Assembly (NCBI RefSeq): GCF_023078455.1
Contig: NZ_CP095740.1
Span: forward strand, 4,328,001 to 4,392,000
Length of the DNA stretch: 64,000 nt
Source of the DNA: Luteibacter aegosomatis
Lineage (GTDB): Bacteria > Pseudomonadota > Gammaproteobacteria > Xanthomonadales > Rhodanobacteraceae
Direction: 5' to 3'
Below, one piece after another: positions 8,317-53,300 of this stretch (positions within the stretch are counted from its first letter, which is position 1; every line of letters starts with the position of its first letter). The notes under the pieces were generated by a model. The model had not been told where the DNA came from. It saw only the letters and a list, made by a program, of their open reading frames with translations, and did not search any database. The translations under genes were made by a program, and so were the position numbers.

Positions 8317-8329
8317 CGACCGAAAAGCC

Positions 8330-30814: not shown

Positions 30815-31546
30815 TCAGCGTGCGACGTAGCCGCGCTCTTCCATGACCGCGGCGATCGCCGCTTCGGCCTGGGCGAGTACCTGCGCCAGCGGCTGGGCGG
30901 CGTCGATATCGACGATGCGCGCGCCGCTGAACGTCAGCAAGGGCGTGACCGCGATCTTTCGCGCAAGCGCCTCGCGGCGATGATCGGGCTTGCGCCGGCA
31001 CGCGGTGTCGAGATCGACGTTGAGGCGCAAGACCAGGTCGGGACGATGGCTGGCCATCCAGGCGAACGCGGCGTGCTCGTGCCTGGCGAGACGGACCACG
31101 AGCGGCGACCCCGTCGAGGTCTCGGGAAAACCGGGACCGTCATAGGCCCCCGGGACCTCCACCTGGGGAAAGCGGTCGGTGACGACGATGAGGCCTTGCC
31201 GACGCAGCGCCAGCATGCGTTTGAAGCGGCGCTTGCGGCGCAGGGTGAACAGGCTGATGACCAGCGCGGGCAGCAGCTTGGGTTGCCGGTCGGCCTTGAT
31301 CTGCTTGTTGACGTCCTTGACCTTGCGTTCGATGAGGCGCTCGGTGACACCGCCGATCAACGGCAGCCGCCCCAGCGCGCGGAGGACGTTGCCCGATTGC
31401 TTGCCCAGATGGACTCGACCCGCGGGCCCGTAACGGGTGATCCAGCGGGCGATGTGGTCGCCGACGGTCGATTTTCCGGACCCGTCGGTACCGATGATGG
31501 CGATCAGTGGAGCCAAGGCGTCAGGCTGTGCCCGCATTGCTGTCAT
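30815..31546 (-). CDS. Thymidylate-kinase-fold P-loop protein (paralogue 1)
   Basis: A 243-residue P-loop NTPase: Walker [12 protein letters not shown] at about residues 17-27, and a DRFP block ([20 protein letters not shown]) where thymidylate kinases have DRY/H. A basic middle region ([16 protein letters not shown]) precedes it, and [15 protein letters not shown] is the lid-like segment. It is not the housekeeping Tmk, which is shorter and has other lid sequences. Two more paralogues follow at 31709 and 32431, on the other strand. E. coli YghR/YghS/YghT are similar-sized P-loop proteins beside YghO and YghQ; ortholog classes of all of these occur in this window. A lipid or headgroup kinase role is my inference. 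ATG 31546 preferred over GTG 31552 or ATG 31537. Confidence 0.75.
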
Positions 31547-31708
31547 CCGCACGAAATGTGAAAGGCGCTTGAAAGACCGGTGACACGCACCAACTAACGT
31601 GCCCGGTGCATGGCCGCATGAAAGTGAAGATCCTGTGAGATCTTACGTAGACGGAAACGTCCACGCGGGCTTAACATTGCAATTATATTACGCAACAGGT
31701 TATTTTCG

Positions 31709-32434
31709 TTGGTTTCCTTCCCGCCCCTTTCCGACGGCCCGCGCGTGCTGCCCGTCATCGCCCTTACCGGGTGCGATGGCTCGGGCAAGTCGACGCTCGC
31801 CTCCGCGCTGGTCTCACGCCTGGGTGAGAAGGCGTCGGCCGAGCAGCTCTACCTCGGCCAGTCGTCGGGAAAGATCGGCGATTGGATCCGCGAACTGCCG
31901 CTGATCGGCCCGCCGGTGGGGCGTTACCTCGGGCGCAAGTCCGACCGCGTACACGACCGCCCCAGCGAGCCGCCGGGCGCGGTGACCGCCCTGGCGATCT
32001 ACCTCCTGTCGCGTTGGCGTGCGCATAAGTACCGCCACATGCTGGCGATGTGCCGGCGCGGTGCGCTGGTGATCACCGACCGCTACCCGCAGGCCGAAAT
32101 CCCCGGCTTCCTGTTCGACGGCCCTGAGCTTGCGAAGACGCAGGGCGGTTCCTGGTGGGTACGCTGGCTGCGCGAGCGCGAGCTGAAGCTTTACCGCTGG
32201 ATGGCCACCGGCGTGCCGATGCTGGTGATCCGGCTCAATGTCGATGAGGCGACCGCCCACGCGCGCAAGCCCGACCATAAGCTCGCCTCGCTGCGAAAGA
32301 AGATCGCCGCACTGCCCCACCTCACCTTCAACGGCGCCCGCATCCTCGACCTCGACGGTCGCGACGATGCGGCCCACGTGCTCGATGCGTCGCTGCGCGC
32401 GGTGCACGGCGCCCTCGAGGCCACACCCGCATGA
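31709..32434 (+). CDS. Thymidylate-kinase-fold P-loop protein (paralogue 2)
   Basis: A 241-residue protein with Walker A LTGCDGSGKST, then LYLGQSSGKIGDWIRELPLI. VITDRYPQAEIPGFLFDGPE is the DRYP motif, and HARKPDHKLASLRKKIAALP the basic lid. It is strongly similar to paralogue 3 throughout. TTG 31709 has AGGT eight bases upstream; GTG 31745 is an alternative that still keeps the P-loop. It opens the plus-strand run 31709-40487 and overlaps the next gene by ATGA. Its upstream region (31640-31708) is A/T-rich for this genome (CTTAACATTGCAATTATATT) and probably holds the promoter. Confidence 0.8.
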   Translation: MVSFPPLSDGPRVLPVIALTGCDGSGKSTLASALVSRLGEKASAEQLYLGQSSGKIGDWIRELPLIGPPVGRYLGRKSDRVHDRPSEPPGAVTALAIYLLSRWRAHKYRHMLAMCRRGALVITDRYPQAEIPGFLFDGPELAKTQGGSWWVRWLRERELKLYRWMATGVPMLVIRLNVDEATAHARKPDHKLASLRKKIAALPHLTFNGARILDLDGRDDAAHVLDASLRAVHGALEATPA

Positions 32435-33165
32435 ATACCCACACCGCTGCGCTGCCGCCCATCGCGGGGCTGGTCGCCGTCGTCGGTTGCGACGGCACCG
32501 GCAAGTCCACGCTCACCCACGACCTGGCCCGCAACCTGGGGCGGCACGCGCGCGTGGAGCGGCGTTACCTGGGCCTGATCTCCGGCGAGAGCGGCGACAA
32601 GATCAAGCGCCTGCCGCTGATCGGCCCTCGCCTGGAACGCCGCCTCGCCGCCAAGGCCGCGCATGCGCAGGACATGCGCAACAAGGCACCGGGCCCCTGG
32701 GGCGCGCTGGTGATGTACGGCCTGTCGCTCTGGCGCGCGGCGCACCTGCGCAAGGTCCGCCGCATGGCCGAGCGCGGCGTGCTGGTGATCACCGACCGCT
32801 ACCCGCAGGCGGAGATCAACGGGTTCCGCTACGACGGCCCGGGGCTGGGCGAGCGCAGTGACCACTGGCTGGTGCGCAAGCTCGCCGCGCGCGAAAAGCG
32901 CCTGTACGAGCGCATGGCGCGGCATCGACCGGCCCTGGTCATCAAGCTCGACATCGACCTGTCTACCGCGCATGCGCGCAAGCCCGACCACAACCCGGCC
33001 GAGCTGAGCGACAAGATCGCCGTGATGTCGCGCCTGAAGTACAACGGCGCCCCGCTGTTCGAATTGGACACCCGCGCGCCGTACGCCGACGTGCTGGAAA
33101 AGGCGTCGCTCGCCGTGATCGCGGCGATGCCCACGCTTTCATCCCTCGCCAACGCGGCCGCATGA
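32431..33165 (+). CDS. Thymidylate-kinase-fold P-loop protein (paralogue 3)
   Basis: A 244-residue protein with Walker A VVGCDGTGKST, RRYLGLISGESGDKIKRLPL, DRYP block VITDRYPQAEINGFRYDGPG, and lid STAHARKPDHNPAELSDKIA. The shared GLGERSDHWLVRKLAAREKR-type stretch in paralogues 2 and 3 points to a recent duplication. ATG overlaps the preceding stop by four bases. Three such proteins beside a lipid-assembly operon suggest successive phosphorylation or sensing steps rather than nucleotide metabolism; this is inference. E. coli YghR, YghS and YghT offer the closest known arrangement. Confidence 0.8.
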   Translation: MNTHTAALPPIAGLVAVVGCDGTGKSTLTHDLARNLGRHARVERRYLGLISGESGDKIKRLPLIGPRLERRLAAKAAHAQDMRNKAPGPWGALVMYGLSLWRAAHLRKVRRMAERGVLVITDRYPQAEINGFRYDGPGLGERSDHWLVRKLAAREKRLYERMARHRPALVIKLDIDLSTAHARKPDHNPAELSDKIAVMSRLKYNGAPLFELDTRAPYADVLEKASLAVIAAMPTLSSLANAAA

Positions 33166-33211
33166 GCGCGCCTGTCGCGCCGTCACCGCCACCTTCATCG
33201 TCAGGGCTACC

Positions 33212-33967
33212 GTGAACACCTCCGTTTCCACCACACCGCAAGCACCGCTATGGCGCCGCCTGCTGATCCGGGGCGGCAAGCACTTCCTTCGCTGGAGCGG
33301 CCGTTTCCAGGACAGGCACTCGCTGGCGCCCACCACGCCGGTGATCGGCAACGAGCAGTTCGCCTGGGTGCCGCAGCTGGAAAGCGCCTGGCCGCGGATC
33401 CGGGCCGAACTCGACCACCTGCTCGAACACCCCGAGGACATCCCCGCCTTCCACCAGATCTCGCCCGACCAGAAACGCATCTCCAAGGGCGACAACTGGA
33501 AGACGTTCGGCTTCTACGTCTACGGCAAGCGAGTGGACGAGAACTGCGCACTCTGCCCGGAGACGGCCGCGGTGCTCGACGCGCTGCCGGGCATGCGCAG
33601 CGCGATGTTCTCGATCCTCCAGCCTCGCTATCGCATCGCCCCGCACAAGGGCCCGACCAAGGCCGTGATCCGCGCGCACCTGGGCCTGAAGGTACCGGCC
33701 GACCGGGACAACGTCTGGATCCGCGTGGACGACCAGATCCTGCACTGGGACGAGGGCAAGGTCGTGCTTTTCGACGACAGCTACGAGCACGAGGTCCACA
33801 ACGACACCGACGAGCTCCGGGCCGTGCTGTTCATCGACATCGATCGGCCGATGGACCGGATCGGAACGGCCTTCAATCGATTGATTTTCTGGTTGATCCA
33901 GGCGAGTCCCTACGTGAGGCAACCCATCCGGAACCTCGCCAAGTGGAACCGGGACCGAGGTCGCTGA
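33212..33967 (+). CDS. LpxO-like aspartyl/asparaginyl beta-hydroxylase family dioxygenase
   Basis: A 251-residue Fe(II)/2-oxoglutarate dioxygenase. The iron ligands are H145 in IAPHKGPTKAVIRAHL and the distal His in VVLFDDSYEHEVHN (about 185-197); the Arg of RAVLFIDIDRP binds 2-oxoglutarate. The hydrophobic C-terminus (FNRLIFWLIQASPYVRQPI) could touch the membrane, as in LpxO, which 2-hydroxylates a lipid A acyl chain. GTG 33212 has CAGGG six bases before it. Between the P-loop proteins and the ceramide-type genes, it is a natural candidate for hydroxylating the fatty acyl of the same lipid; that substrate is inferred. Confidence 0.85.
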   Translation: MNTSVSTTPQAPLWRRLLIRGGKHFLRWSGRFQDRHSLAPTTPVIGNEQFAWVPQLESAWPRIRAELDHLLEHPEDIPAFHQISPDQKRISKGDNWKTFGFYVYGKRVDENCALCPETAAVLDALPGMRSAMFSILQPRYRIAPHKGPTKAVIRAHLGLKVPADRDNVWIRVDDQILHWDEGKVVLFDDSYEHEVHNDTDELRAVLFIDIDRPMDRIGTAFNRLIFWLIQASPYVRQPIRNLAKWNRDRGR

Positions 33968-34040
33968 GGCCGTCTTCGCGGCTTCTTCACCTTTGTGCAG
34001 GCGAAAAGGCGCGAAGACTCACGATTTCTTGAGTAAATTC

Positions 34041-34068
34041 TTAACATTCGTCCCAATTAAGGTACCAT
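34041..34068 (+). promoter_or_regulatory. Possible promoter before the acyl-AMP ligase
   Basis: TTAACA (34041-34046), 16-base spacer, TACCAT (34063-34068), in a locally A/T-rich stretch. CTTAACATT also occurs upstream of paralogue 2 (31670-31678), hinting at a shared signal. No terminator is seen between 33968 and 34142, so read-through from upstream also fits. Confidence 0.4.
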
Positions 34069-34142
34069 TGGGTTCAGTAATCGCGTTGCCACGCCGCGGT
34101 GACTTTCCCGCAATGTGAAATCCGCATCGAACTGAAAAGACC

Positions 34143-35906
34143 ATGAGCGCAGACGGAAGCATTCCGACCCGTAGCGGGTCCCCGACTCCCACGATCAACA
34201 CGGTGCCCCTGCGCCGTGGGGATTTTTCCACTTTGTCCGAGGCCCTGGATTACGCGGCCACGGGTATCACCGGCGCGAACTTCCACGCCGGCGGAAAACT
34301 CGTCGCGGCCGTGCCCTACCGCCTTCTGCGAACGCAGGCGATGGCGCTGGCGCGTCGTCTGCTGTCCCTGGACCTTCCGCGCGGCGCGTGCGTGGCCATC
34401 GTGGCGGAGACCACGCCGGACTTCCTGCGCTTCTTCTTCGCGTGCCAGTACGCCGGGCTGGTTCCCGTCGCGCTGCCGTCGGCCATCAATCTGGGCGGCC
34501 ACGACGCCTACGTGCACAAGCTCCACGGCATGCTCGAGGCATGCCGCGCCGCGGTCGCCGTGGCCTCCGAGAGCTTCCAGGGGTTTCTCGAGGAAGCCGT
34601 GCGCGGCCTCGACGTGGTGATGTGGGGCGAGCCCGCCGCGTTCGAAGCGCTGCCTTCGCAGGCCAAGCCGCTCACGCCCATCGGGCCGGACGAGATCGCC
34701 TACCTGCAGTTCACCTCGGGCAGCACCGGTACGCCGAAGGCCGCCGTGATCACCGAGCGCGCCCTGATGGCGAACCTGCGCGGATCGATCGACCACGGCC
34801 TCGCGCTGCGTGAGGACGACCGCTTCGTGTCGTGGCTGCCGTTCTATCACGACATGGGCCTGGTCGGCTGCCTGCTCACCGTGCTCGGCGCCCAGCGTTC
34901 CATCGATTACCTCGACACGCGCGAATTCGCGATGCGTCCCCGCCGCTGGCTGGAACTGATGAGCGAATCGAAGGCGACCGTCGCCTACAGCCCGCCTTTC
35001 GGCTACGACATGTGCGCGCGTCGCGTCCGTCCCGGCGACATCGCCTCGTACGACCTCTCGCGCTGGCGCGTCGCCGGCGTCGGTGCCGAGCCCATCCTTC
35101 CGTCCGTGCTGAACCATTTCGCCGAGATGCTCGCTCCGGCGGGTTTCGACGCGCGCGCCTTCGTGCCGTCCTATGGCATGGCCGAGGCCTCGCTGGCGGT
35201 CAGCTTCGCGCCGCTGGACCACGGCATGGTGGTCGACTGGATCGACCCGACCGACCTCGCCGATCGCCTGCTCGCCACCCCGGTGGCCGAGGGCCAAGGC
35301 ACCGGATTCGTGCGTTGTGGCGGCGTCATCGCGGGGCATGATCTGGAAATCCGCGACGACGCGGGCCGCGTGCTGCCCGAGCGCCACGTGGGCCGCATCC
35401 TGGTTCGCGGGCCGAGCCTGATGTCGGCGTATTTCGAGCAGCCGCAGCTGACCGCCGACGTCCTGGCGAGCGACGGCTGGCTCGACACCGGCGACATCGG
35501 CTACCTCGTCGATGGCGAAGTCGTCATCACGGGCCGCCACAAGGACATGATCATCGTCAACGGACGCAACATCTGGCCGCAGGACATCGAGCGCATCGCC
35601 GAACGCCAGCCGGAGCTCCGCTCGCAGGACGCCTCCGCGTTCAGCGTGCCCGGCCCGACCGGCAGCGAAATGGCCGTGGTGGTCGTGCAGTGCGCCTCCA
35701 ACGATCCGACGGTACGCGCCACGCTCGTCCAGCGCATCCGCCGCGAGGTGCTCGAAGAACTCGCCGTCGATTGCGTCATCGAGCTGGTGCCGCGGCATAC
35801 GCTGCCGCGCACCTCGTCCGGCAAGCTGTCCCGCTCGGCGACGCGCACCGGCTATCTCGCACGGCAGGCGCAGGAGCCGCCCCTCCGGGTCGCAGCTTCA
35901 CGATGA
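34143..35906 (+). CDS. Fatty acyl-AMP ligase / acyl-ACP synthetase (ceramide cluster type)
   Basis: A 587-residue ANL-family enzyme that would activate a fatty acid as acyl-AMP and load it onto the ACP encoded two genes later. The A3 motif is TSGSTGTPKAA (191-200), WLPFYHDMGLVG is the family's A4/A5-like block, SYGMAEASLAVSF follows, and WLDTGDIGYL and ITGRHKDMIIVNGRNIWPQD are A7/A8. These FAAL-type sequences are those seen with carrier-protein partners. It overlaps the reductase by ATGA. In Caulobacter the same neighbours (acyl ligase, epimerase-like reductase, ACP, SPT) make the ceramide backbone. Confidence 0.9.
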   Translation: MSADGSIPTRSGSPTPTINTVPLRRGDFSTLSEALDYAATGITGANFHAGGKLVAAVPYRLLRTQAMALARRLLSLDLPRGACVAIVAETTPDFLRFFFACQYAGLVPVALPSAINLGGHDAYVHKLHGMLEACRAAVAVASESFQGFLEEAVRGLDVVMWGEPAAFEALPSQAKPLTPIGPDEIAYLQFTSGSTGTPKAAVITERALMANLRGSIDHGLALREDDRFVSWLPFYHDMGLVGCLLTVLGAQRSIDYLDTREFAMRPRRWLELMSESKATVAYSPPFGYDMCARRVRPGDIASYDLSRWRVAGVGAEPILPSVLNHFAEMLAPAGFDARAFVPSYGMAEASLAVSFAPLDHGMVVDWIDPTDLADRLLATPVAEGQGTGFVRCGGVIAGHDLEIRDDAGRVLPERHVGRILVRGPSLMSAYFEQPQLTADVLASDGWLDTGDIGYLVDGEVVITGRHKDMIIVNGRNIWPQDIERIAERQPELRSQDASAFSVPGPTGSEMAVVVVQCASNDPTVRATLVQRIRREVLEELAVDCVIELVPRHTLPRTSSGKLSRSATRTGYLARQAQEPPLRVAASR

Positions 35907-36886
35907 ACGACGCGCCGGGCAGGGCCTCCACCGTTGTCGCGCTGACCGGCGCCACGGGCTTCATCGGTAACGCCCTGCGCGAGCGGTTGCTGCGCGGCGG
36001 CCACGCCGTGCGCGCGCTCTATCGCCCCCGCCGAGGTCGCGTGATGCCGCAGGCGCCGGGCCTCACGTGGGTGGCGGGCGACCTGGGCGACCGCGACGCC
36101 CTCGCCGCGCTGGTCGAGGGCGCGAAGGTGGTGGTGCATTGCGCCGGCAACGTGCGCGGCGCGCGGCGCGAGGATTTCGACCTCGTCAACGAAAAGGGCG
36201 TGGCCGACATCGCGCAGGCCGCGCGCGGCACCGCCGGATGCGAGCGCTTCCTGCTGATTTCGTCGCTGGCCGCGCGCGAGCCCCAGTTGTCCGATTACGC
36301 GCGCAGCAAACGGCTCGGCGAGGAGGCGCTCGCGGCGCACGCGGGCCATCTCGCATGGGCCGCGATCCGTCCGCCGGCCGTTTACGGTCCCGGCGATCGC
36401 GAGATGCTGCCGCTTTTCGAGGGCATGGCCCGCGGACTGGCGCCGATCCCCGGCGACGGCCGCGGCCGGTTCTCGATGATCCACGTCGCCGACCTGGCCT
36501 CGGCCGTGCTGGCATGGGTGGACAACGACGGCGTGTCGGGCGCCATCCACGAACTGGACGACGGGCACGCCCGCGGCTACGACTGGGATACCGTGCTCGC
36601 CACGGCCGCGCGCGTGCTGCGCGACGGTGCGCCCATCCGCCGGCTGCGCATCCCCGTGGCCTGCCTGCGCGTCGTCGCCGGCGTCAACCTGCTGGCGGCG
36701 CGCCTCTTCGGCTACGCGCCCATGCTGACGCCGGGCAAGGTGCGCGAAATCACGCACGCCGACTGGACGTGCGACAACCGGACATTTACAGAAGCGACTG
36801 GCTGGCATCCCGCGATCGGCTTCGCCGAAGGCCTGGCGCAAACGCTCGGCAAGACACCTGCCGCACTGAACGGAGTGCCCCAATGA
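35903..36886 (+). CDS. NAD-dependent epimerase/dehydratase-family reductase (CerR-like)
   Basis: A 327-residue extended SDR. VVALTGATGFIGNALRERLL gives the TGxxGxxG Rossmann motif at residues 15-21, and SDYARSKRLGEEAL holds the catalytic YxxxK; LLISSLAA supplies the serine. The C-terminal half has VYGPGDREMLPLFEGMARG. Gene order acyl ligase - this - ACP - SPT is that of the Caulobacter ceramide genes, where the equivalent protein reduces the 3-oxo group. By analogy it is the 3-ketosphinganine/3-ketoceramide reductase. Coupled on both sides by ATGA overlaps (35903 and 36883). Confidence 0.88.
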   Translation: MNDAPGRASTVVALTGATGFIGNALRERLLRGGHAVRALYRPRRGRVMPQAPGLTWVAGDLGDRDALAALVEGAKVVVHCAGNVRGARREDFDLVNEKGVADIAQAARGTAGCERFLLISSLAAREPQLSDYARSKRLGEEALAAHAGHLAWAAIRPPAVYGPGDREMLPLFEGMARGLAPIPGDGRGRFSMIHVADLASAVLAWVDNDGVSGAIHELDDGHARGYDWDTVLATAARVLRDGAPIRRLRIPVACLRVVAGVNLLAARLFGYAPMLTPGKVREITHADWTCDNRTFTEATGWHPAIGFAEGLAQTLGKTPAALNGVPQ

Positions 36887-37125
36887 ACTATCAAGACCTG
36901 GTCAATCAGGTGGTCGATCTCGTCACCCCGTTGGCCGAGGGCCGTGTCGCGCACATCGGCCCCAACACCGACCTGACCGGCGAGCTGGCGCTGGATTCGC
37001 TCAAGGTCATGGACCTCATGCTCGCGGTCGAGGATCATTTCGACATCTCGGTGCCAGTCAACGCGCTGGCCAACGTCAAGGTCGTGGGCGACCTCGCGTC
37101 GCTGATCCAGAAATTCGTAGGTTGA
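36883..37125 (+). CDS. Acyl carrier protein dedicated to the ceramide-type cluster
   Basis: An 80-residue carrier protein: phosphopantetheine serine S39 in LTGELALDSLKVMDLMLAVE, followed by acidic helix II and the hydrophobic VPVNALANVKVVGDLASLI. It differs from housekeeping AcpP (DSLD.VEL) and lies between reductase and SPT genes, so it should present the acyl chain (from the ligase) as acyl-ACP for condensation with serine. Start overlaps the reductase stop by ATGA; the SPT gene begins five bases after its stop. Confidence 0.92.
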   Translation: MNYQDLVNQVVDLVTPLAEGRVAHIGPNTDLTGELALDSLKVMDLMLAVEDHFDISVPVNALANVKVVGDLASLIQKFVG

Positions 37126-37129
37126 GTGC

Positions 37130-38314
37130 ATGAAAGACAATTCCAGGCTCCAGGCGGTACAGAACGTCCGCCAGGAGTTGGCCGCCATCGGGATCGACCC
37201 GTTCGGCGTGCAGATCGACCAGATCCTCTCGCCGACCCGTGGATTGATCCATGGCCGCGAGGTCATTCTCGCGGGTACCAACAACTACCTCGGCCTGACC
37301 TTCGACCCGGATTGCATCGCCGCTGCCCGCGAGGCCCTGGAGCACGCCGGTACCGGCACCACCGGCTCGCGCATGGCCAACGGCAGCTACGCGTCGCATC
37401 GCGAGCTCGAACTGGAGCTGGCGCGCTTCTACGACAAGCGCGACGCCATCGTGTTCTCGACCGGCTACCAGGCCAACCTGGGCATGATCTCGGCCCTGGC
37501 CGGCCCCGGCGACACCGTGATGATCGACGCCGACAGCCATGCCAGCATCTACGACGGCTGCCGCCTGGCCGGCGCGGAGACCATCCGCTTCCGCCACAAC
37601 GATCCGGACGACCTCGCCAAGCGCATGCGCCGGCTCAAGGACAAGGCCCCCGACGCGCTGATCGTGGTGGAAGGCGTCTACAGCATGCTCGGCGACCGCG
37701 CGCCTCTACGCGAGTTCGTGGACGTCAAGAAACAGTTCGGCGCCACCCTGCTGGTCGACGAGGCCCATTCGATGGGCGTGCTCGGCGCGAAGGGACGCGG
37801 CCTCGCCGAAGAGGTGGGCGTGCTGGACGACGTCGACTACGTGGTGGGCACCTTCAGCAAGAGCCTGGGCAACACGGGCGGCTTCTGCGTGGGCGACACC
37901 GACGAGATGGAGCTGCTGCGCTACGCCAGCCGTCCCTACGTGTTCACCGCCTCGCTGCCGCCGGCGACCATCGCGGCCACGCGCGCGGCGTTGCGCAAGC
38001 TCGAAAAGGCCGACGACCTGCGCGAGCGCCTCCAGGCGAACGCGCAGCGCCTGCACGACGGCCTGAGCAAGCTCGGCTTCCGCCTCGGCGCACCGGCCAA
38101 CGCGGTGGTGGCGGTACTGGCCGGCGAGAAGGTCGCGGCACTGCGCTTCTGGGCCCACCTGCTGGAGAACGGCGTCTACGTGAACCTCATGGTGCCGCCG
38201 GCCACGCCCAGCGACGAATCGCTGCTCCGCTGCAGCGTCAGCGCGGCGCATACGCCCGAACAGATCGACGCCATCTGCGCCGCCTTCGCCAGCTGGCCCG
38301 GCGCGGGAAGATGA
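37130..38314 (+). CDS. spt: Serine palmitoyltransferase-like alpha-oxoamine synthase
   Basis: A 394-residue fold-type-I PLP enzyme. Cofactor residues: DADSHASIYDG (H137 stacking), TLLVDEAHSMG (D210, H213), and PLP lysine K244 in VGTFSKSLGNTGGF. The GTFSKS motif is that of SPT, whereas KBL/BioF/ALAS carry other residues around the lysine. NNYLGLTFDP and GTGTTGSRMANGSYASHREL are general family blocks. Reaction expected: acyl thioester plus L-serine to 3-ketosphinganine. Context (acyl ligase, ACP, reductase) strongly supports this; other amino acids as substrate remain possible. Overlaps the flippase by ATGA. Confidence 0.87.
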   Translation: MKDNSRLQAVQNVRQELAAIGIDPFGVQIDQILSPTRGLIHGREVILAGTNNYLGLTFDPDCIAAAREALEHAGTGTTGSRMANGSYASHRELELELARFYDKRDAIVFSTGYQANLGMISALAGPGDTVMIDADSHASIYDGCRLAGAETIRFRHNDPDDLAKRMRRLKDKAPDALIVVEGVYSMLGDRAPLREFVDVKKQFGATLLVDEAHSMGVLGAKGRGLAEEVGVLDDVDYVVGTFSKSLGNTGGFCVGDTDEMELLRYASRPYVFTASLPPATIAATRAALRKLEKADDLRERLQANAQRLHDGLSKLGFRLGAPANAVVAVLAGEKVAALRFWAHLLENGVYVNLMVPPATPSDESLLRCSVSAAHTPEQIDAICAAFASWPGAGR

Positions 38315-39648
38315 GGCACTGGTTCTCCGATGGTGCGTTCCGCGCCATCGTGCGCAATGCCTCCTACCTCGGCTCCAGCAACCTCGTCAGCGCCCTGCTG
38401 GGGCTGCTGGCGCTGGCCTGCGCCGGTCGCGCGATGGACCCGGCGCTGTTCGGCACGCTGGTGGTGATGCAGGCCTACGCCAAGAGCGTGAGCGACTTCG
38501 CCAAGTTCCAGACCTGGCAGTTCGTGGTGCAGTTCGGCACGCCGGCGCTGACGCGCCGCGACCTCGACCGCTTCCGCGACGTGGCCGGTTTCTCCTTCGG
38601 CCTGGACCTGGCCAGCGGCGCCATCGCCCTCGTCGGCGGCATGATCCTGTTGCCGCTGCTCGGCCATGCCGTCGGCATCGATCCCACCGACTTCTGGTGG
38701 GCGCTGGGCTACTGCACCCTGATCCCCACCATGACCGCGGCCACGCCCACGGGCATCCTGCGCGCGATCGACCGCTTCGACCTGATCGCCGTGCAGCAGG
38801 CGGTGACGCCGTTCCTGCGAGCCGTGGGTAGCGTGATCGCCTACTTCGGCGACCTCGGCTTTCCCGGATTCATCGCCACCTGGTACGTCTCCAGCCTCGT
38901 CGGCGACGGCGCGCTGTGGTGGTTCGCCGTGCGCGAACTGCGCCGGCAGAACATCGACCATGCGCTTCGCCCCGGGCTCTTCGGCGTGGCCCGCCGCATC
39001 CAGGGCGCATGGGACTTCGTCTGGACCACCAACTTCGCGCACTCGATCTGGTCGGCGCGCAACGCCGGCAGCAACGTACTCGTCGGCATCATGCTCGGCC
39101 CCACCGCGGCCGGCCTGTTCAAGGTGGCCCTCACCTTCTTCGACGCCGCGGGCACGCCCGCATCGCTCATGCAGAAGAGCTTCTATCCGGAGATCCGCCG
39201 CCTCGACCCGGCGAGCGACCGCCCCTGGAAGCTCGGCCTGCGCTCGGCGGCACTGGCCGGTGGCCTGGGCGTACTGGTGGCGCTGCTGGTGATCGTCGTG
39301 GGCAAGCCGCTCATCGCCTCGGTGTTCGGCCACGAGTACCTGGAGTCGTACGCCCTGCTCCAGGTGATGTCCGCCGCGCTGGTCGTTTCCATGGCCGGGT
39401 TCCCGCTGGAATCGCTGCTCTACATCGCGGGCCGCCAGCGCGCCGCGCTGGTGGCGCAGGCGCTCGCCGCCGTGCTCTACGCGCTGTTGCTCATCGCGCT
39501 CACCCATTACGTCGGCATCATGGGTGCCGCCATCGCCTACTTCGGCGGCCAGTGCCTGGAAGCGTTCTTCTCGCTGGTTCCCACCGTCACGGCCTACCGC
39601 AGGCGGCATACGCTTTCGTATTACGCCCCGGGGGAGGCGGGCCCATGA
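38311..39648 (+). CDS. Polysaccharide/lipid flippase of the MOP superfamily (YghQ/Wzx-like)
   Basis: A 445-residue integral membrane protein with about 12 TM helices and the Wzx/PST look: an amphipathic start (MRHWFSDGAFRAIVRNASYL), GRAMDPALFGTLVVMQAYAK after TM1/2, and NAGSNVLVGIMLGPTAAGLF, the common LG..AAG.. motif of this family. Family members flip lipid-linked sugars or lipids from the inner to the outer leaflet. Translationally coupled to SPT before and the unknown gene after, so the likely cargo is the ceramide-derived lipid or a glycan on it (inference). E. coli YghQ, a protein of the same class, sits near YghO. Confidence 0.87.
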   Translation: MRHWFSDGAFRAIVRNASYLGSSNLVSALLGLLALACAGRAMDPALFGTLVVMQAYAKSVSDFAKFQTWQFVVQFGTPALTRRDLDRFRDVAGFSFGLDLASGAIALVGGMILLPLLGHAVGIDPTDFWWALGYCTLIPTMTAATPTGILRAIDRFDLIAVQQAVTPFLRAVGSVIAYFGDLGFPGFIATWYVSSLVGDGALWWFAVRELRRQNIDHALRPGLFGVARRIQGAWDFVWTTNFAHSIWSARNAGSNVLVGIMLGPTAAGLFKVALTFFDAAGTPASLMQKSFYPEIRRLDPASDRPWKLGLRSAALAGGLGVLVALLVIVVGKPLIASVFGHEYLESYALLQVMSAALVVSMAGFPLESLLYIAGRQRAALVAQALAAVLYALLLIALTHYVGIMGAAIAYFGGQCLEAFFSLVPTVTAYRRRHTLSYYAPGEAGP

Positions 39649-40487
39649 ACGGCGTCTACGGCGGTCTTCGCTGGCAGCGGTTCCCGAGGGAAACCCTCCG
39701 GCGCCTGTTCGATGCGGTGGATACCGACGACGTGGTCGATGCCCACGTGGCCCTGCCCGATCCCATCGTGCTGTCGTGCCCGCGCGACCAGATCGAGCGC
39801 TGCTACGCGCTGTGCCTGCAGTTCTGGCACGACGGCGTGCACCGCAAGGAGCTGCTGCAACTGGTCGACAAGCTGTTGCGCAACGAAGGACTCAGCGCCG
39901 ACGAGCGGATGCTGTACAAGTACATCCGCGCGCGTTACAAGCACCTGCGCTTCGCCCAGCGGCTCTACGGCAAGCGCCATCGTTCCGGGCTGCTGTTCGA
40001 CTTCACCACGCGCGTGATGGGCCACCTGCAGGATGCGTTCCGCAGCGGCCGTCGCGCCGGCGTGCTGCGTCACGGCCGACGCCTGAAGCTGCTGCTCTCG
40101 CGCCCGGTGTGGATCATGGTCAAGCGCGGGCTCGAACAGATCGAACTCGACGACGAGGCCGGCTTCATCGCGCACCAGCGGGCGGAAATGCGCCGGCTGA
40201 AGAAGGCCATGGAACGCACGCACTTCGCCGGCCACCAGTTCCACACGGTGCGCAAGATCGTCAGCATGCAGGTGTCCTATTACGACACGGTTCGCTCGAT
40301 CGCGCCCGAGGAGCATGCGTTGCGCATGTCGCGATTCCTCGCCGCGATCAACGGCCTGATGGGCGCGCGCCACGACGAAATGGTGGCCGAGTCGCTGTCG
40401 GGTCGTCGCAGTTACGACACGCCCGCGCCGCTGACCACGCAGATGCGCTCGCGACTCGAGGCGTTGGTGGCGCGTTATCCGTTTTAG
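39645..40487 (+). CDS. Unknown helical protein, last gene of the ceramide-type operon
   Basis: A 280-residue soluble, basic, mostly helical protein that I do not recognise. Features: two CxxxC-like positions near residues 44-54 (LSCPRDQIERCYALC), very basic middle (LRFAQRLYGKRHRSG; VLRHGRRLKLLLSRPVW), and HFAGHQFHTVRKIVSMQVSY, whose histidine/arginine pattern loosely recalls CHAD domains. No signal peptide or TM. Start overlaps the flippase stop by ATGA, so it belongs functionally to the operon. Possible roles include headgroup transfer or scaffold, but nothing in the sequence decides. Confidence 0.8.
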   Translation: MNGVYGGLRWQRFPRETLRRLFDAVDTDDVVDAHVALPDPIVLSCPRDQIERCYALCLQFWHDGVHRKELLQLVDKLLRNEGLSADERMLYKYIRARYKHLRFAQRLYGKRHRSGLLFDFTTRVMGHLQDAFRSGRRAGVLRHGRRLKLLLSRPVWIMVKRGLEQIELDDEAGFIAHQRAEMRRLKKAMERTHFAGHQFHTVRKIVSMQVSYYDTVRSIAPEEHALRMSRFLAAINGLMGARHDEMVAESLSGRRSYDTPAPLTTQMRSRLEALVARYPF

Positions 40488-40544
40488 CGAACGCGCGTCG
40501 TCGCTCGCACGAACGCAAGGCGCTGGGTTCCTGCCTGCGCAGGA

Positions 40545-44391: not shown

Positions 44392-44412
44392 GTACATGCA
44401 TGGAGCCAGGCC

Positions 44413-45902: not shown

Positions 45903-47234
45903 TCAGGGGCGCGTTGGAGACTGCCACCCGCCACCCAACGCCACGATGAGATCCACGCTCGCGTCCAGGCGACGGCGACGCAGTTCCAGGTCGCCGCGGC
46001 CGGCGTTGAGCGCCGTGTTCGCCGCGTCCACCACGGCCGGGTAATCGGCTACGCCTTCGCGATACTGGTTCTGCATCACGCGGTCGGATTCGCGCGCGGC
46101 CGCCGCGGCTTTCGCCTGGAGATCGGCCGCGCCGGCCAGTTGGCTCGTCGTCACCAATCCGTCTTCCACTTCACGGTACGCGTCGAGCACGGTCTGTCGG
46201 TAGTTGGCGACCGCTTCGGCATAGGCCGCGTCGGCGTTGTCGACCTGCGCCTCCAACCGGCCGCCCGCGAACAGCGGCGCACGCGCATCTACCGTGCCGG
46301 TGAGGCCACGCAGCACGCCGATGCCGGCGGCGAGGTTGATCGACGGCAGCGTCTGCGCCTTGGCGACGCCGATGCGCGCGCTGGCGGCCGCCATGCGGCG
46401 CTCGCTGGCGACGACGTCGGGACGACGCTCCAGCAAGCTCGCCGGTACGCCGGCGGGAATCGTGGGTACCGCCACGTCGAATGGCGCGGGGGCGATCGAG
46501 AAATCGGCCGGCGTCTTGCCCAGCATCACGGCGATCGCATGTTCGAGTTGCGCGCGCGCCGTGCGCGCGTCGGCCAGTTGCAGCTGCGCGGTGCTGGCAC
46601 GCACGAGGGCTTCGGCCACGTTGGCGCTGGAGGCCTGCCCCTGCGCGTACTGGTTCTGCACCATCGTGTGCCAGCGCGTGCCGACGTCGGCCGCGTGTTC
46701 GAGCAGGGCGATGGTCGCGTCTTGCTCGCGCAGGGCGAAGTAGCTCTGCACCACGCGCGACTGCATCGAGAGCGTCGCCGCGTCGAGGTCCGCCTCGCTC
46801 GCCTGCGTGGCCGCGCGGTGCGCTTCGACGTCGCGACGGATGCGGCCCCACAGGTCGAGCTCCCAGCTCACGCCCACGCCGAAGTCGTTCTCGTTGCGAC
46901 GGCCCGACTTGAGCGTGCCCGCGCTGACCGCGGGTACGGACGCGCCACCGGCCGCCTTCACCAGGGCCTGCGCCTCGCGCACGCGGGCCGCGGCGGCGGC
47001 GAGCGTCTGGTTGTTCACGAGCACCTGCGACACCAAGGCGTCGAGCGTGGGATCGGCGTAGATGGACCACCACTTGCCCGCCGGCGACGGCGTGGCCTGC
47101 CGGTTACCCTGCGCCGACGCCTCCTTGTAGGCCACGGGCGTGGCGACCGACGGCCGCACGTAGTTGGGTCCGACCGGTGCGCAGGCGGACACGGCCACGA
47201 CCGCACCGGCGATCAGCAGGGTGCGACGCATCAT
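45903..47234 (-). CDS. NodT-family outer-membrane efflux lipoprotein
   Basis: A 443-residue TolC-like channel. Signal peptide with lipobox SAC at MMRRTLLIAGAVVAVSACAP, so lipid-anchored in the outer membrane. SVPAVSAGTLKSGRRNENDF and VSWELDLWGRIRRDVEAHRA are diagnostic for the NodT/OprM group; two repeats of coiled helices follow (first around SYFALREQDATIALL, second around REVEDGLV). The start ATG 47234 overlaps the MdtC stop (ATGA), completing a tripartite pump with the three genes before it. It is the last gene of the operon 55792-45903. Confidence 0.93.
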   Translation of the reverse strand: MMRRTLLIAGAVVAVSACAPVGPNYVRPSVATPVAYKEASAQGNRQATPSPAGKWWSIYADPTLDALVSQVLVNNQTLAAAAARVREAQALVKAAGGASVPAVSAGTLKSGRRNENDFGVGVSWELDLWGRIRRDVEAHRAATQASEADLDAATLSMQSRVVQSYFALREQDATIALLEHAADVGTRWHTMVQNQYAQGQASSANVAEALVRASTAQLQLADARTARAQLEHAIAVMLGKTPADFSIAPAPFDVAVPTIPAGVPASLLERRPDVVASERRMAAASARIGVAKAQTLPSINLAAGIGVLRGLTGTVDARAPLFAGGRLEAQVDNADAAYAEAVANYRQTVLDAYREVEDGLVTTSQLAGAADLQAKAAAAARESDRVMQNQYREGVADYPAVVDAANTALNAGRGDLELRRRRLDASVDLIVALGGGWQSPTRP

Positions 47235-50200
47235 GCCGGCGGCCCCTTGCGGCCTGCCTGCCATGCCGCCGCGCGACGGGTTCCGAAGCTCTGAAACCAT
47301 GAACGTGCCCACCTGCTGAATCGATCGAGATAAAGGTATACGACGGGCGTCGTGTACAGGGTCAACACCTGGCTCACCACCAGGCCGCCGCCCATGGCGA
47401 TGCCCAGCGGCTGGTGCATTTCCGAACCGTTGCCGCGCGACACCGCCAGGGGAACCGCCGCCACCATGACCGCGAGCGAGGTCATCAGGATCGGACGGAA
47501 ACGCAGGCGGCAGGCTTCCTGGATCGCCTCGGCCGGGGTCAGGCGGCCTTCGCGGCTCGCCACCAGCGCGAAGTCCACCATCATGATCGCGTTCTTCATC
47601 ACGATGCCGACCAGCGCGAAGATGCCGACGAGGGCGATCACGTCGAGGTCGGTGCGGAACAGCAGCAGCGCGAACACCGCGCCCACCGCTGCGGACGGCA
47701 GCGTCGAGAGAATGGTGATCGGGTGCACGCAGCTCTCGTAGAGCACGCCGAGCACGATGAACAGGGTGAGGAACGCACCGAGGACCAGTGCCGGTTCGCT
47801 GTCGGCCACCTGGCGCGCGGCGCCGGCCGAGCCCTGGAGGCTGCCGCGTACCGAGGTCGGCACGGCGAGGGCATCCACCGCGCGCTGGATGGCCTGCGCG
47901 GCCTGCGACAACGACACGCCGGGCGCGCGATCGAACGACACGGTGGCGGCTACCGCCTGACCGAAGTGCGAGATGCTGAGCGGCGCGTCGGTCTGGCGCA
48001 CCTGCCCGAGCGCCGACAGCGGCACGCTCGCGCCGCCGGCCGTCGGCACGCGAAGCTGGGCGAAGGCATCCGCCGAACGCGCGTGCTCGGGCGCCACGCC
48101 CATGAGTACCGGGATCTGGTCCGACAGCGTGAACACCGTCGCCACGCGACGGTCGGCGAACGCGTCGCGTAGCACGCCGTCGATCCGCGCGTAGGGCACG
48201 CCGAACTGCGCGGCGGTGTCGCGATCGACGTCCAGCGACGTAGCGACGCCGTTGCCGCCCACGCTGCCGTGCACGTTGCGCAGCTCCGGCAACGTCGTCA
48301 TCGCCTGGGCGATGCGCGGCGCCCACTGGCGCAGCAACGCGGAGGAGTCGGCCTGGACGGTGTATTCGTTCGACGAGCGGCTGCGCCGTCCGCCGACGCG
48401 GATGTTCTGCACCGAGGTGACCGTGAAGACGCCGCCGGGGCGGTTCGCCAGCTTTACGTTCAGCCGCGCCGCCACCTCGTCGGCGCTCGCGTCGCGCTCG
48501 CCGAACGGCTTGAGCGTCACGAACAGCGACCCCGAATCCTGCTCGGCGAAGCCGGCCGCGCTGGCCACGGCGGGGTCGGCGCGCACCACGTCGAGGAAAC
48601 CGGCCAGTTGCTCGCGCACGCGGGGAAACGACGTGCCGGCATCGGTATCGAAGTCACCGGTCAGCTCGCCGTTGTCCTGGCGGGGGAAGAATCCCTTGGG
48701 CACCACGACGTACAGGTACACGCTGAGGGCGAGTACGCCCAGCAGCGACAGCATGGTCAACGGCGCACGACGCAGCGCATGGACGAGGCTGCGATCGTAG
48801 GCGTCCTGCAACTTCGCCAGGCCACGTTCGCTCCAGCGATACAGGCGGCCATGCGATCGCTCCGCCCGCGCGGGCCGCAACCACTGCGCGCACAGCATCG
48901 GCACGACGGTGAGCGACACCAGCAGCGAAATGGCGATGACCGTCGCCAGCGTCACGGAGAACTCGCGCACGAACAGACCGACGTAGCCGCCCATCAGCAG
49001 CAACGGGATGAACACGGCGATGAGCACCGCGCTCATGGACAGCACGGTGATGCCCACCTCGCCCGCGCCGACGCGCGCCGCCTCGCGTGGCGGCAAACCG
49101 GCTTCCAGATGGCGAGCGATGTTCTCGACCACCACCACCGCGTCGTCCACGGCGAAACCCACGGCGATGGTCAGCGCCATCAGCGAAAGGATGTCGAGGC
49201 TGTAACCCAGCGCATACATGACGATCATCGCGCCGAGCATGGCGATGGGCGCGACGGCGCTGGCGATCAGCGCCGCGCGCCAGTCGCGCAGGAACACCAG
49301 CATCACCACCACGACCAGCACCACCGCGAGGGCGAGCGTATGCTCGGCCGCGCCCAGCGACGCGCGCACGGTGGTGGCGCGATCGACGATGACACCCACC
49401 CGCATGTCGCCCGGCACGGAGGCGCGCAGCACCGGCAGGCGGCGCGTTACGCCGTCGATCACCTCGATGGTGTTGGAGCCCGGCTTGTGCCGCACGAGCG
49501 CCAGCACCGCCGGTTCCCCGTTGGCGAACGCGGCGGCACGCGTGTCGCGCACACCCTCGACGACGCGACCGACGTCGCCCAGGCGCACCGCTGCGCCGTC
49601 GCGCTGGGCGATCACGAGGGAGCGCAGGGCGTCCGCGGAATCCAGCTGGCCGTTGGTGGCGACCTGCAAGGCACGGTCGCCGAGTTCCACCACGCCGGTC
49701 GGCTGATTGGCCACCGCCGATGCGATGGCATGCCGCACGTCTTCCATGCCGACGTTGCGCTGGGCCAGCGCCTGCGGGTCGAGCTCGACACGGAAGGCGG
49801 GCTCGGAGCTGCCGACGATCTCCACGTCGCCCACGCCGTCCACCTGCGCCAGCACCTGGGCGAACGTGGACGAGGCCACGGCGTACATCTGGCCGGGCGT
49901 CGCGCGCCGCGAGGTGAGCGCCAGGACCATGACCGGCGCATCCGCGGAGCTGACCTCGCGATAGCTCGGGCTGCCCGCCATGTCCGGCGGCATGTCGCCG
50001 CGCGCCGCGTTGATCGCGGCCTGCACGTCGCGTGCCGCGCCCACGGTGTTGCGCGACAGGTCGAAGGTGAGGCGGATGTCGGTCTGGCCGTTGGCGTTGA
50101 CCGAGGTCATCTCGGTCAGGCCCGCGATGCGTCCGAGCGCGCGCTCCAGCGGCGTGGCCACGGCGGCGACCATCGTCGCCGGGCTGGCGCCGGGCAGCGA

Positions 50201-50347
50201 CGCCGACACCTTGATGGTCGGCACGTTCACCTCGGGCATCGACGCGATCGGCAACAGGCGCCACGCCAGCACGCCCGCTACCACGAGCCCGAGGCACAAC
50301 AGCGTCGTCGCCACCGGCCGGTCGATGAACGCCCGGGACACGTTCAT
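47231..50347 (-). CDS. mdtC: RND efflux permease, MdtC-like
   Basis: A 1038-residue inner-membrane RND pump subunit with 12 TM and two large periplasmic loops. VSRAFIDRPVATTLLCLGLV is TM1, and AVGFAVDDAVVVVENIARHL is the TM4 proton-relay block with paired Asp. PLLLMGGYVGLFVREFSVTL and the late VALVGIFALVGIVMKNAIMM and VDFALVASREGR regions are standard. In E. coli MdtB and MdtC form a B2C heterotrimer with MdtA; here the same adaptor - permease - permease order is followed by a NodT channel. Overlaps both neighbours by four bases. Co-operonic with a BcerS-like acyltransferase. Confidence 0.94.
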   Translation of the reverse strand: MNVSRAFIDRPVATTLLCLGLVVAGVLAWRLLPIASMPEVNVPTIKVSASLPGASPATMVAAVATPLERALGRIAGLTEMTSVNANGQTDIRLTFDLSRNTVGAARDVQAAINAARGDMPPDMAGSPSYREVSSADAPVMVLALTSRRATPGQMYAVASSTFAQVLAQVDGVGDVEIVGSSEPAFRVELDPQALAQRNVGMEDVRHAIASAVANQPTGVVELGDRALQVATNGQLDSADALRSLVIAQRDGAAVRLGDVGRVVEGVRDTRAAAFANGEPAVLALVRHKPGSNTIEVIDGVTRRLPVLRASVPGDMRVGVIVDRATTVRASLGAAEHTLALAVVLVVVVMLVFLRDWRAALIASAVAPIAMLGAMIVMYALGYSLDILSLMALTIAVGFAVDDAVVVVENIARHLEAGLPPREAARVGAGEVGITVLSMSAVLIAVFIPLLLMGGYVGLFVREFSVTLATVIAISLLVSLTVVPMLCAQWLRPARAERSHGRLYRWSERGLAKLQDAYDRSLVHALRRAPLTMLSLLGVLALSVYLYVVVPKGFFPRQDNGELTGDFDTDAGTSFPRVREQLAGFLDVVRADPAVASAAGFAEQDSGSLFVTLKPFGERDASADEVAARLNVKLANRPGGVFTVTSVQNIRVGGRRSRSSNEYTVQADSSALLRQWAPRIAQAMTTLPELRNVHGSVGGNGVATSLDVDRDTAAQFGVPYARIDGVLRDAFADRRVATVFTLSDQIPVLMGVAPEHARSADAFAQLRVPTAGGASVPLSALGQVRQTDAPLSISHFGQAVAATVSFDRAPGVSLSQAAQAIQRAVDALAVPTSVRGSLQGSAGAARQVADSEPALVLGAFLTLFIVLGVLYESCVHPITILSTLPSAAVGAVFALLLFRTDLDVIALVGIFALVGIVMKNAIMMVDFALVASREGRLTPAEAIQEACRLRFRPILMTSLAVMVAAVPLAVSRGNGSEMHQPLGIAMGGGLVVSQVLTLYTTPVVYLYLDRFSRWARSWFQSFGTRRAAAWQAGRKGPPA

Positions 50348-53300
50348 GCCCGGCGCGCCCCTTTCGCGCCGGCATGGAACACGCGCTCGAACGCGAGGTA
50401 GATCACCGGCGTGGTGAACAGCGTGAGCAGCTGGCTCACCAGCAGGCCCCAGAAGATGCCTACGCCCAGCGGGTGGCGCAGCTCGGCGCCCATGCCACCG
50501 CTCAACATCAGCGGCAGCGCGCCCAGCATCGCGGCAAGGGTGGTCATGAGGATGGGGCGGAAGCGCAGCAGGCTTGCCTGCACGATCGCGTCACGAGGCG
50601 CGAGGCCCTGCTCGCGCTGCGCGTCGATCGCGAAGTCGATGAGCATGATCGCGTTCTTCTGCACGATGCCGATCAACAGGATCACGCCGATGAACGATAT
50701 CACGTCGAGCTCGAAGCCGCCGATCATCAATGCCAGCAGCGCGCCGATACCGGCCGACGGCAGCGTGGAAAGGATGGTCAGCGGATGCACGTAGCTCTCG
50801 TAGAGCACGCCCAGCACGATGTACACCGTGAGCAGCGTGGCGAGGATCAGCCACGGCTGTCCTTCGCGCGACGCCTGGAACGCTTCGGCGGCGCCTTCCC
50901 AACGCGCCTGCACGCTCGCGGGCATGTCGAGCTTGCGCCGCGCGTCGTCCACCGCCTTCATCGCGCCGTCGAGGGCATCCCCGCGCGCGAGGTTGAACGA
51001 CACCGTCGCCGCCGGTTGCTGGTCGATGCGCGTGACCACCAGCGGTGCGGTGCGCTCGCTCACCGTGGCGATGGACGAGAGCGGCACGAGGGCATCGCCC
51101 GGTTCGCCGCCCTTGGCCGTGCCCTGCGACGCGGCGAGGTAGACGCCGTTCATCGCGCCGCTCGCGCCGTCGGTGGACGGCATGGCTTCGAGGATCACGC
51201 GACGCGGATTGGCCAGCGACAGCAAGGTGCTGACCTGGCGCTGCCCGAAGGCGTCGTAGAGCGCATCGCCCACGGCGGCGGCGGTGATGCCGTAGCGGCT
51301 GGCGAGGTCGTGGTCGACGCCGACGTAGGCTTGCAGGCCGAGGTTCTGCTGGTCGCCGGCGACGCCGTCGATGCGCTTCACGCCGCGCAGCGCATCGACC
51401 ACGCGCGGCGTCCACTGCGCGAGCTGCGTGGCGTCGGCGCTTTCGAGCGAGAGCTGGTACTGCCCGCGACTGATCCGGTCGTCGATGGTGAGATCGGGCA
51501 CCGGTTGCAGGTGCAGCGTGATGCCGTCGACCTTCGCCGCGGCATCGGCGAGCCGTGCCATCACCTCGCCCACGCGGTCGCGCTGCGAGAGCGGCTTCAG
51601 GTGGATCATCAACTGGCCGGTGTTGCCCGGCAGCGAACCGTCTTCGCCGCCGACGAAGGAGGCGACGCTGGCCACGGCGGGGTCTTGCAGGATCGCCTGG
51701 GTCAAGGCGCGCTGGCGCCGTCCCATCGCGTCGAACGATACGGTCGGCGACGCTTCGGAAATGCCCTGGATGTCGCCCGAATCCTGCACGGGGAACAGGC
51801 CGCGAGGGATCGCCACGTAGAGCACCACGGCCAGCACCGCCATGGCGCCGACGGTGGCGAGGGTCGCGCCCTGGCGCGCCAGCACCCAGGCCAGCCCGCG
51901 CTCGTAGCGCGCGAGCAGGCCGTCGAGCCAGGCTTTGCCTTCGCGGGCGACGCGGCCCTGCTCCGCCTCGGGCACGCGGCGCAGCATGCGCGCGCACATC
52001 ATCGGCGTGAGCGTCAGCGACACCACGCAGGAAATCAGGATCGCCACCGCCAACGTCACCGCGAATTCGCGGAACAGGCGACCGACCAGGCCACCCATGA
52101 ACAGCAGCGGGATCAGCACCGCCACCAGCGACACCGTGAGCGAGACCACGGTGAAGGCGATCTGGCGCGCGCCCTTCAACGCGGCGTCGAGCGGCGCCTC
52201 ACCGGCTTCGACGTAACGCGAGATGTTCTCGATCATCACGATGGCGTCGTCCACCATGAAGCCGGTGGCGACGATGAGCGCCATCAGGGTCAGGTTGTTG
52301 ATCGAGAAACCCGCCAGGTACATCACCGCGAAGGTGCCGACCAGCGACAGCACCACCACCACGCCGGGAATCACGGTCACGGTGCCGTTGCCGAGGAACA
52401 GGAAGATCACGAGCACCACGAGCACGACGGCGAACACCAGCTCGACCTGCACGTCGCGCACGGCGGCGCGCACGGTCTCGGTGCGGTCGCTCAGCGTGGC
52501 GATGTCCACCGCCGCGGGCAGCGTGCCCTTGAGCTGCGGCAACAGCTGGCGGATGCGGTCGACCACCTCCACCACGTTGGCGCCCGGCTGGCGGCGGATG
52601 CGCACGACGATGGCCTGCGCCTCGCCGGACCATGCGGCCAGGCGCGCGTTTTCCGCGCCTTCGGCGACGCGCGCGACGTCGCCCAGGCGCACCACCGCAC
52701 CGTCGCGATGGCCGACGATGAGGTCGCGGAACCCGTCCACGGTGTCCACCGGGCGATTGAGCGCGATGTTGGACGAGCGGTCGGGGCCTTCGAGGATGCC
52801 CTTGGCCTGGTTCGAGTTGGCGTCACGGATCGCGGTGCGCAGGTCACCCAGCGTGAGCCCGTGCGAGCGCAGGCGCGACGGATCGGCCTGCACGACGATC
52901 GCCGGCTGCTGGCCACCGTCGATGCTCACCGCGCCCACGCCGCTCACCTGCGACAGCTTGGGCACCAGGCGCGTATCGGCGAGTTCGCGCACGGTGCGCA
53001 ACGACAGCGTGGGCGAGGTCAGCGCCAGCGTCATCACCGGCGCGTCGGCCGGGTTCACCTTGCGATAGACCGGCGGCTGCGACACGTCGGGCGGCAGCAA
53101 GGGCGCGACGGCGTTGAGCGCGGCCTGCACTTCCTGCTCGGCCACGTCCAGCGGCAGGTCGAGGTTGAAGCGCAGGGTGATCGTGGAGTGGCCTGCCGTG
53201 CTGGTCGACGACATCCGGCCCAGGCCCGGCATCTGCCCGAGTTGGCGTTCCAGCGGCGCGGTGATCGACGAGGCGATCACCTGCGGCCCCGCGCCGGGGT

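Follow-up and report, generated by a model that had tools for sequence, protein, structure and literature searches.

A 64,000-nucleotide stretch of the genome of Luteibacter aegosomatis (contig NZ_CP095740.1, positions 4,328,001 to 4,392,000; hereafter, the window) contains a cluster of genes around spt, which encodes a putative serine palmitoyltransferase (SPT). We consider it very likely, given the similarity of these genes to known ones, that this is a sphingolipid locus that makes ceramide. The adjoining kinase and transport genes, which are poorly understood, may complete the lipid and carry out its export by an undescribed route.

Four genes on the plus strand form the core of the cluster. 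A fatty acyl-AMP ligase (FAAL) similar to AasR (34143..35906) scores 765.7 bits against the NCBIfam model NF006624 (cut-off 600) and is 46% identical to the FAAL of the E. coli BL21 cluster. It is followed by a CerR/Epi-like reductase of the NAD-dependent epimerase family (35903..36886; PF01370, E = 4.9e-25; 46% identical to Epi of BL21), by an AcpR-like acyl carrier protein (ACP; 36883..37125; PF00550, E = 4.8e-10; 49% identical to the E. coli ACP over 49 residues), and by SPT itself (37130..38314; 630.1 bits against NF047599, cut-off 500; 59% identical to Spt of BL21). The motifs that had been reported in a sequence-only reading of this DNA are all present: GTFSKSLG at residue 240 of SPT, DSL starting at residue 38 of the ACP, TSGSTGTPK and PRTSSGK in the FAAL, and YARSK at residue 132 of the reductase. 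That reading also described the genes as joined by 4-base overlaps or a 5-base gap. The overlaps are there (ligase and reductase share ATGA, and the reductase and ACP genes also overlap by 4 bases), but the gap between the ACP gene and spt is 4 bases (37126-37129). Similarly, the proposed operon limits of 34143-38314 do enclose the four genes, but they are too narrow: ATGA overlaps extend the unit through two more genes, which encode a flippase and a CHAD-like protein.

Curated cut-offs and the nearest solved structures agree that the putative SPT is not KBL, BioF, ALAS, or CqsA. It falls short of the models for each of these relatives (BioF, 351.4 < 426.45 bits; KBL-type, 296 < 493; ALAS, 240.2 < 338.55; CqsA-type, 241.6 < 428). 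It also misses two other SPT models from NCBIfam, NF047603 and NF047600. The nearest structures, 2x8u and 2jg2, are both of bacterial SPTs, and they align with the protein around the lysine that binds pyridoxal phosphate and at DADSHASIYDG, VDEAHSMG, and LLRCS; we take these blocks to hold active-site residues. We also examined a phylogenetic tree with 113 rows. (Loci L008 and L070, whose best piece was short or contained a stop, were left out beforehand.) The SPT from the window groups with SPTs from Rhodanobacteraceae, and every SPT lies apart from the outgroup, which consists of three unclassified paralogs from the same genome. A grouping with KBL or BioF, which the sequence-only reading had named as an outcome that would count against it, did not appear in this tree, which has only those paralogs as outgroup and no rows for CqsA or ALAS. 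The root, which falls within the Rhodanobacteraceae rows, is rough because the branches of the paralogs are very long.

A homolog of the bacterial ceramide synthase CerS (the YghO/Aca family) lies about 17 kb away on the minus strand (54650..55774; start codon unsure). It is 50% identical to YghO over 374 aligned positions, and it was the only match when YghO was compared to the whole genome. (Pfam gives only a sub-threshold match, to GNAT.) With this homolog, the window holds a counterpart of each of the five known ceramide genes; the accessible part of PMC9386255 lists these five in E. coli BL21. According to the sequence-only reading, Caulobacter needs the same four gene classes in the same order, along with an N-acyltransferase. 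The Caulobacter locus numbers given in that part of PMC9386255 imply the same order, and CerS would be the N-acyltransferase. According to the same source, genes for ACP and for enzymes of the acyl-CoA-synthetase type accompany SPT in alpha-, beta-, and gammaproteobacteria. In the window, the ACP gene is directly upstream of spt and an acyl-AMP ligase is close by, which is the arrangement expected of a rhodobacterial-type ceramide pathway.

To describe the distribution of these genes, we used a sample of 233 genomes from the family and an even sample of species from the class (369 genomes, including this one). SPT was found in 12 of the 233 family genomes (E = 1e-100 or better), including 10 of the 23 from the same genus, and CerS was found, at E = 1e-30, in exactly the same 12. 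The nearest named relative in a scan of contigs was Luteibacter sp. OK325 (85% identity). We fetched 11 related loci, and all 11 keep the three kinase-like genes described below, the ligase, the reductase, the ACP gene, spt, the flippase gene, and the gene for the 280-residue CHAD-like protein in one arrangement. This identical order, together with scores for FAAL and SPT above the family cut-offs, goes beyond chance. Since the 12 genomes are related, counts across them are not independent events.

In the class sample, spt was present in 21 of 369 genomes, which is a minority, yet the claim that sphingolipid-like lipids are unusual for gammaproteobacteria is too strong as it was put. Ceramide genes are reported from E. 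coli BL21 (PMC9386255) and sphingolipid clusters from Azotobacter vinelandii and Pseudomonas luteola (PMC11324152) in the accessible parts of these papers, so a gammaproteobacterial ceramide set has already been published. Also, among 5,426 complete genomes of E. coli, 4,047 have spt at 80% coverage or more and 4,023 have the four-gene operon.

The genes that flank the core also have counterparts in E. coli. Downstream of spt, and overlapping it by ATGA, is a MOP/Wzx-type flippase (38311..39648, plus strand; PF01943, E = 1.4e-10) that is 64% identical to the product of the gene at the yghQ position in E. coli and is its ortholog. Another ATGA overlap leads to the gene for the 280-residue protein (39645..40487, plus strand), which is orthologous, with 52% identity, to the product of an unnamed 274-amino-acid gene beside yghQ. 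By its predicted fold, the 280-residue protein is tentatively CHAD-like, with the CHAD domain proteins 6qv5 and 6qva (the latter with polyphosphate) as the closest known ones. Pfam has no family that matches it at E = 10 or better, and a sequence-profile search of the PDB gave nothing meaningful. CHAD domains bind polyphosphate.

Upstream of the core are three related P-loop proteins, which are orthologs of YghT (30815..31552, minus strand; 59% identity), YghS (31709..32434, plus strand, start codon unsure; 63% identity), and YghR (32431..33165, plus strand; 60% identity). None of the three reaches the cut-off for the dTMP kinase equivalog TIGR00041 (21.9, 27.5, and 25.3 bits < 83.25), and a sequence-profile search of the PDB gave only P-loop-sized matches. 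A thymidylate-kinase fold was modeled for one of them, the YghR ortholog, and the likeness is in the fold alone. Known members of this fold pass phosphate to phosphate. YghR-like kinases were found, at E = 1e-20, in all 12 of the SPT-bearing genomes from the family (three in each, and a fourth in one genome), and in just 1 of the 369 genomes of the class sample, namely this one. The accessible part of PMC9278758 classes YghR, YghS, and YghT as uncharacterized. Among the matches listed in our searches of the open-access literature, we found no paper that links YghQRST, a CHAD protein, or a thymidylate kinase to sphingolipids, and a search on Luteibacter and sphingolipids gave no mention of Luteibacter among the top matches.

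Between the kinases and the ligase is an OlsC/LpxO-like acyl-chain hydroxylase (33212..33967, plus strand; PF05118, E = 4.9e-53). Its top NCBIfam match is OlsC, at 220.9 bits (cut-off 450). The hydroxylase is kept in 10 of the 11 related loci. A thirteenth genome from the family (G017) lacks spt and has a frame-interrupted kinase gene beside a hydroxylase gene that is 83% identical (L181, about 7670-9170). This looks like a remnant of the locus that decayed after the ceramide genes were lost; the alternative is a sequencing error. Homologs of the hydroxylase also lie near spt in other gammaproteobacterial clusters (L054, L055, L058, L073, L132, and L139), which hints at recurrent acyl hydroxylation.

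In E. coli BL21(DE3), the gene order is yghO-aasR-epi-acpR-spt-lptG-lptF-ytfJ-like-unnamed gene-yghQ-yghR-yghS-yghT. The record itself names yghO, spt, lptG, lptF, yghS, and yghT; we take the genes at the yghQ and yghR positions, which are annotated as a "lipopolysaccharide biosynthesis" flippase and as ATP-binding, to be yghQ and yghR. Nine of the ten genes of 30815-40487 pair one to one with this locus, at 46-64% identity, and the hydroxylase gene is the exception. In particular, the flippase, the three P-loop proteins, and the CHAD-like protein, all of them linked to spt, are 52-64% identical to their E. coli counterparts. The two loci thus share homologs of the five ceramide genes as well as YghQ, YghR, YghS, YghT, and the CHAD-like gene. 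What the window adds is the OlsC-like hydroxylase and an RND pump linked to cerS; what E. coli adds is lptF, lptG, and the ytfJ-like gene. Searches at E = 1e-4 of the 20 kb that surround spt in each of the 11 relatives detected none of these three. Also, the accessory genes match those of E. coli, but the backbone genes resemble their E. coli counterparts no more than they resemble those of other proteobacteria.

Complete ygh-type loci are found on a plasmid of Klebsiella michiganensis, which is typed as conjugative, and on a plasmid of Rahnella (L175 and L176); there, a diacylglycerol-kinase gene lies behind cerS. The module of kinase, flippase, and CHAD-like genes adjoins spt on both plasmids, and Pseudomonas veronii has one kinase gene beside spt. 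The clusters of E. coli, Klebsiella, Rahnella, and P. veronii all include the lptF/lptG pair. Since spt is both frequent in E. coli and present on a plasmid typed as conjugative, the capacity for ceramide synthesis in gammaproteobacteria may be mobile.

The RND pump is encoded with cerS on the minus strand, convergent with the spt cluster. The gene for the membrane-fusion (adaptor) protein (53448..54653; TIGR01730, 238.8 bits > 94.9) overlaps cerS by 4 bases. It is followed by an MdtB/MuxB-like permease (50344..53502, start codon unsure; PF00873, 1030.9 bits), an MdtC-like permease (47231..50347; PF00873, 937.1 bits), and an outer-membrane factor (45903..47300, start codon unsure), which we read as belonging to the NodT-type family. 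The outer-membrane factor is 77% identical to its counterpart at one related locus (L163), which has matches in all 11 relatives. CerS, the adaptor, both permeases, and the outer-membrane factor occur together in the window and in all 11 relatives, and permease 1 is beside cerS in each of these. Compared to the MdtABC/MuxABC efflux systems, the window has the same adaptor and two permeases, with these systems as the top family matches. In contrast to those systems, its proteins score under the equivalog cut-offs (adaptor, 327 < 391; permease 1, 1368 < 1584; permease 2, 1151.9 < 1774), a ceramide synthase precedes the adaptor, and the outer-membrane factor comes after. Among the matches listed, all of the adaptor orthologs (66-75% identity) came from the 12 of the 233 family genomes that have SPT, and the matches outside of these 12 had at most 48% identity (best E = 6.3e-89).

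Could the operon make something other than ceramide? FAALs and ACPs also feed secondary metabolism, and the product might be a signal or a secondary metabolite derived from another 2-aminoketone, with glycine, alanine, or cysteate as the amino acid. Alpha-oxoamine synthases are related to each other, and some SPTs weakly accept alanine and glycine, according to the accessible part of PMC10196870. But the protein passes the equivalog cut-off for SPT while missing the models for KBL, BioF, ALAS, and CqsA-type enzymes, and cerS tracks spt exactly across the 233 family genomes, so we consider such a product to be highly improbable. If ceramide is made, then it might be converted to ceramide phosphoglycerate, as in Caulobacter, by the same head-group enzymes and with export by the same Lpt2 proteins. 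The four-gene order is the same as in Caulobacter (PMC9386255, accessible part), and the CC_1168-CC_1152 region of Caulobacter crescentus shares with the window the aasR-cerR-acpR-spt order, CerS, and a flippase (PMC11324152, accessible part). Indeed, many loci of alphaproteobacteria have a match to the MOP-type flippase at 28-34% identity, and it frequently lies directly upstream of the ligase. However, no CpgB-type kinase or close LptF2 was found here, and the locus has instead the three YghR/S/T-type proteins and the CHAD-like protein. A search for the CpgB-type ceramide kinase, the one Cpg protein covered, found it in none of the 12 SPT-bearing genomes from the family. The same query matched 14 of the 20 other SPT-bearing gammaproteobacterial genomes, and in 10 of them the match was within 20 kb of spt; this contrast is tempered because the query was assigned by its position and its GGDG motif, and weak matches (down to 23% identity) may be other lipid kinases. 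Furthermore, the genome encodes a single LptF-like protein, far from the window and just 20% identical to LptF of the E. coli cluster (LptG2 and LptC2 were not searched for genome-wide). For the accessory genes there is a closer model than Caulobacter, namely E. coli yghQRST, which they match. A pathway of the Caulobacter type seems very unlikely here.

Another question is whether the accessory genes have anything to do with sphingolipids. The kinases, the flippase, and the CHAD-like protein might belong to a polysaccharide pathway or to another envelope pathway: the flippase is in a Pfam family for polysaccharide synthesis, yghRS is more frequent than spt in E. coli, and the stretches that we fetched from three plasmids, two of Novosphingobium and one of Acetobacter, include the module but no spt. 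But ATGA overlaps join the flippase and CHAD-like genes to the spt unit. Moreover, the kinases accompany spt in all 12 of the family genomes that have it, and they are its neighbors in E. coli, Klebsiella, Rahnella, and (with one kinase) P. veronii. Given these overlaps and this co-occurrence, we rate the polysaccharide explanation as quite unlikely. We take more seriously the idea that ceramide is made but that the RND pump is an ordinary drug efflux system that happens to lie behind cerS. The permeases score best against the MdtB/MuxB and MdtC models, and such adaptors are widespread (at E = 1e-60, 163 of the 233 family genomes contain at least one match). Nevertheless, among the matches listed, the adaptor's orthologs are confined to the SPT-bearing genomes; the adaptor gene overlaps cerS in the window; and the lptF/lptG pair that accompanies spt in E. 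coli, Klebsiella, Rahnella, and P. veronii is not near spt here. Ordinary drug efflux is a substantial possibility, if not the one that we favor.

Several other observations weigh against a dedicated sphingolipid locus. Co-occurrence inside one family is partly due to shared descent. In the tree, the SPT of E. coli is on a long branch with two other gammaproteobacterial rows and not with those of Rhodanobacteraceae, and the window's SPT is about as similar to alphaproteobacterial SPTs (55-63% identity) as it is to that of E. coli (59%), with up to 67% identity to another gammaproteobacterial genome. Given this placement, and given that the SPT is as close to other proteobacteria (55-67%) as to E. 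coli, the histories of the backbone genes and of the accessory module may differ. The module, or part of it, can also occur away from spt: yghRS is present in 4,567 of the 5,426 complete E. coli genomes, or 520 more than spt, which means that 520 or more genomes have yghRS but no near-complete spt. Two Novosphingobium plasmids carry kinase, flippase, and CHAD-like genes with no spt within 18 kb on each side, and a plasmid of Acetobacter pomorum carries them with no spt within 10 kb. The best matches of the RND genes are to drug pumps, MdtABC/MuxABC. One in-frame stop was flagged in the adaptor match from G115, and another in one kinase match from G053. Finally, we infer the amino-acid substrate, the head group, the target of hydroxylation, and the cargo of the RND pump from sequence.

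Overall, we interpret the gene content as a dedicated sphingolipid locus with ygh-type accessory genes like those of E. coli. An additional hydroxylase is present, and an RND pump takes the place that LptF/LptG have in other clusters. By homology, the ligase would load a fatty acid onto the dedicated ACP, SPT would condense the ACP-bound fatty acid with serine, and N-acylation by CerS and reduction by CerR would yield dihydroceramide. The later steps that we propose deserve much less confidence than ceramide synthesis itself. The OlsC-like enzyme may 2-hydroxylate an acyl chain. At least one thymidylate-kinase-like protein and the CHAD-like protein might build a phosphorylated head group, which would replace the CpgB route. 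The YghQ-type flippase might then flip the lipid across the inner membrane, and delivery to the outer membrane might fall to the RND pump linked to cerS, which would replace the additional LptF/LptG of E. coli and Caulobacter.

At its most specific, this proposal is that there is a new class of bacterial sphingolipid, whose phosphorylated head group, possibly an oligo- or polyphosphate, is made by enzymes with a thymidylate-kinase fold and a polyphosphate-binding partner with a CHAD fold, instead of by CpgB, and which in Luteibacter and Dyella is delivered to the outer membrane by the tripartite RND pump encoded behind cerS. We see this as speculative and, in its entirety, unlikely. If it were true, the YghQRST/CHAD module would give a function to E. 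coli genes that have long been uncharacterized. The backbone pathway is known, but the locus ties ceramide synthesis to yghQRST and to an RND pump. It offers a testable function for yghQRST, a candidate for a new sphingolipid head group, and a candidate for a new lipid-export route that leads to the outer membrane.

A promoter-like site upstream of the ligase gene (34041-34068) is not evidence for a promoter, because the scan found 2 such sites and 1.1 were expected. For terminator-like sites, 2 were found and 5.7 were expected. Two genes with somewhat lower GC content (42094-45681; 765 and 422 amino acids) lie between the CHAD-like and RND genes; they match nothing in Pfam or in the regions that we fetched for the 11 relatives, and this segment is likely an insertion. 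Directly downstream of the CHAD-like gene, at 40544-41127, a 146-base unit is repeated four times in tandem, with 98% matching.

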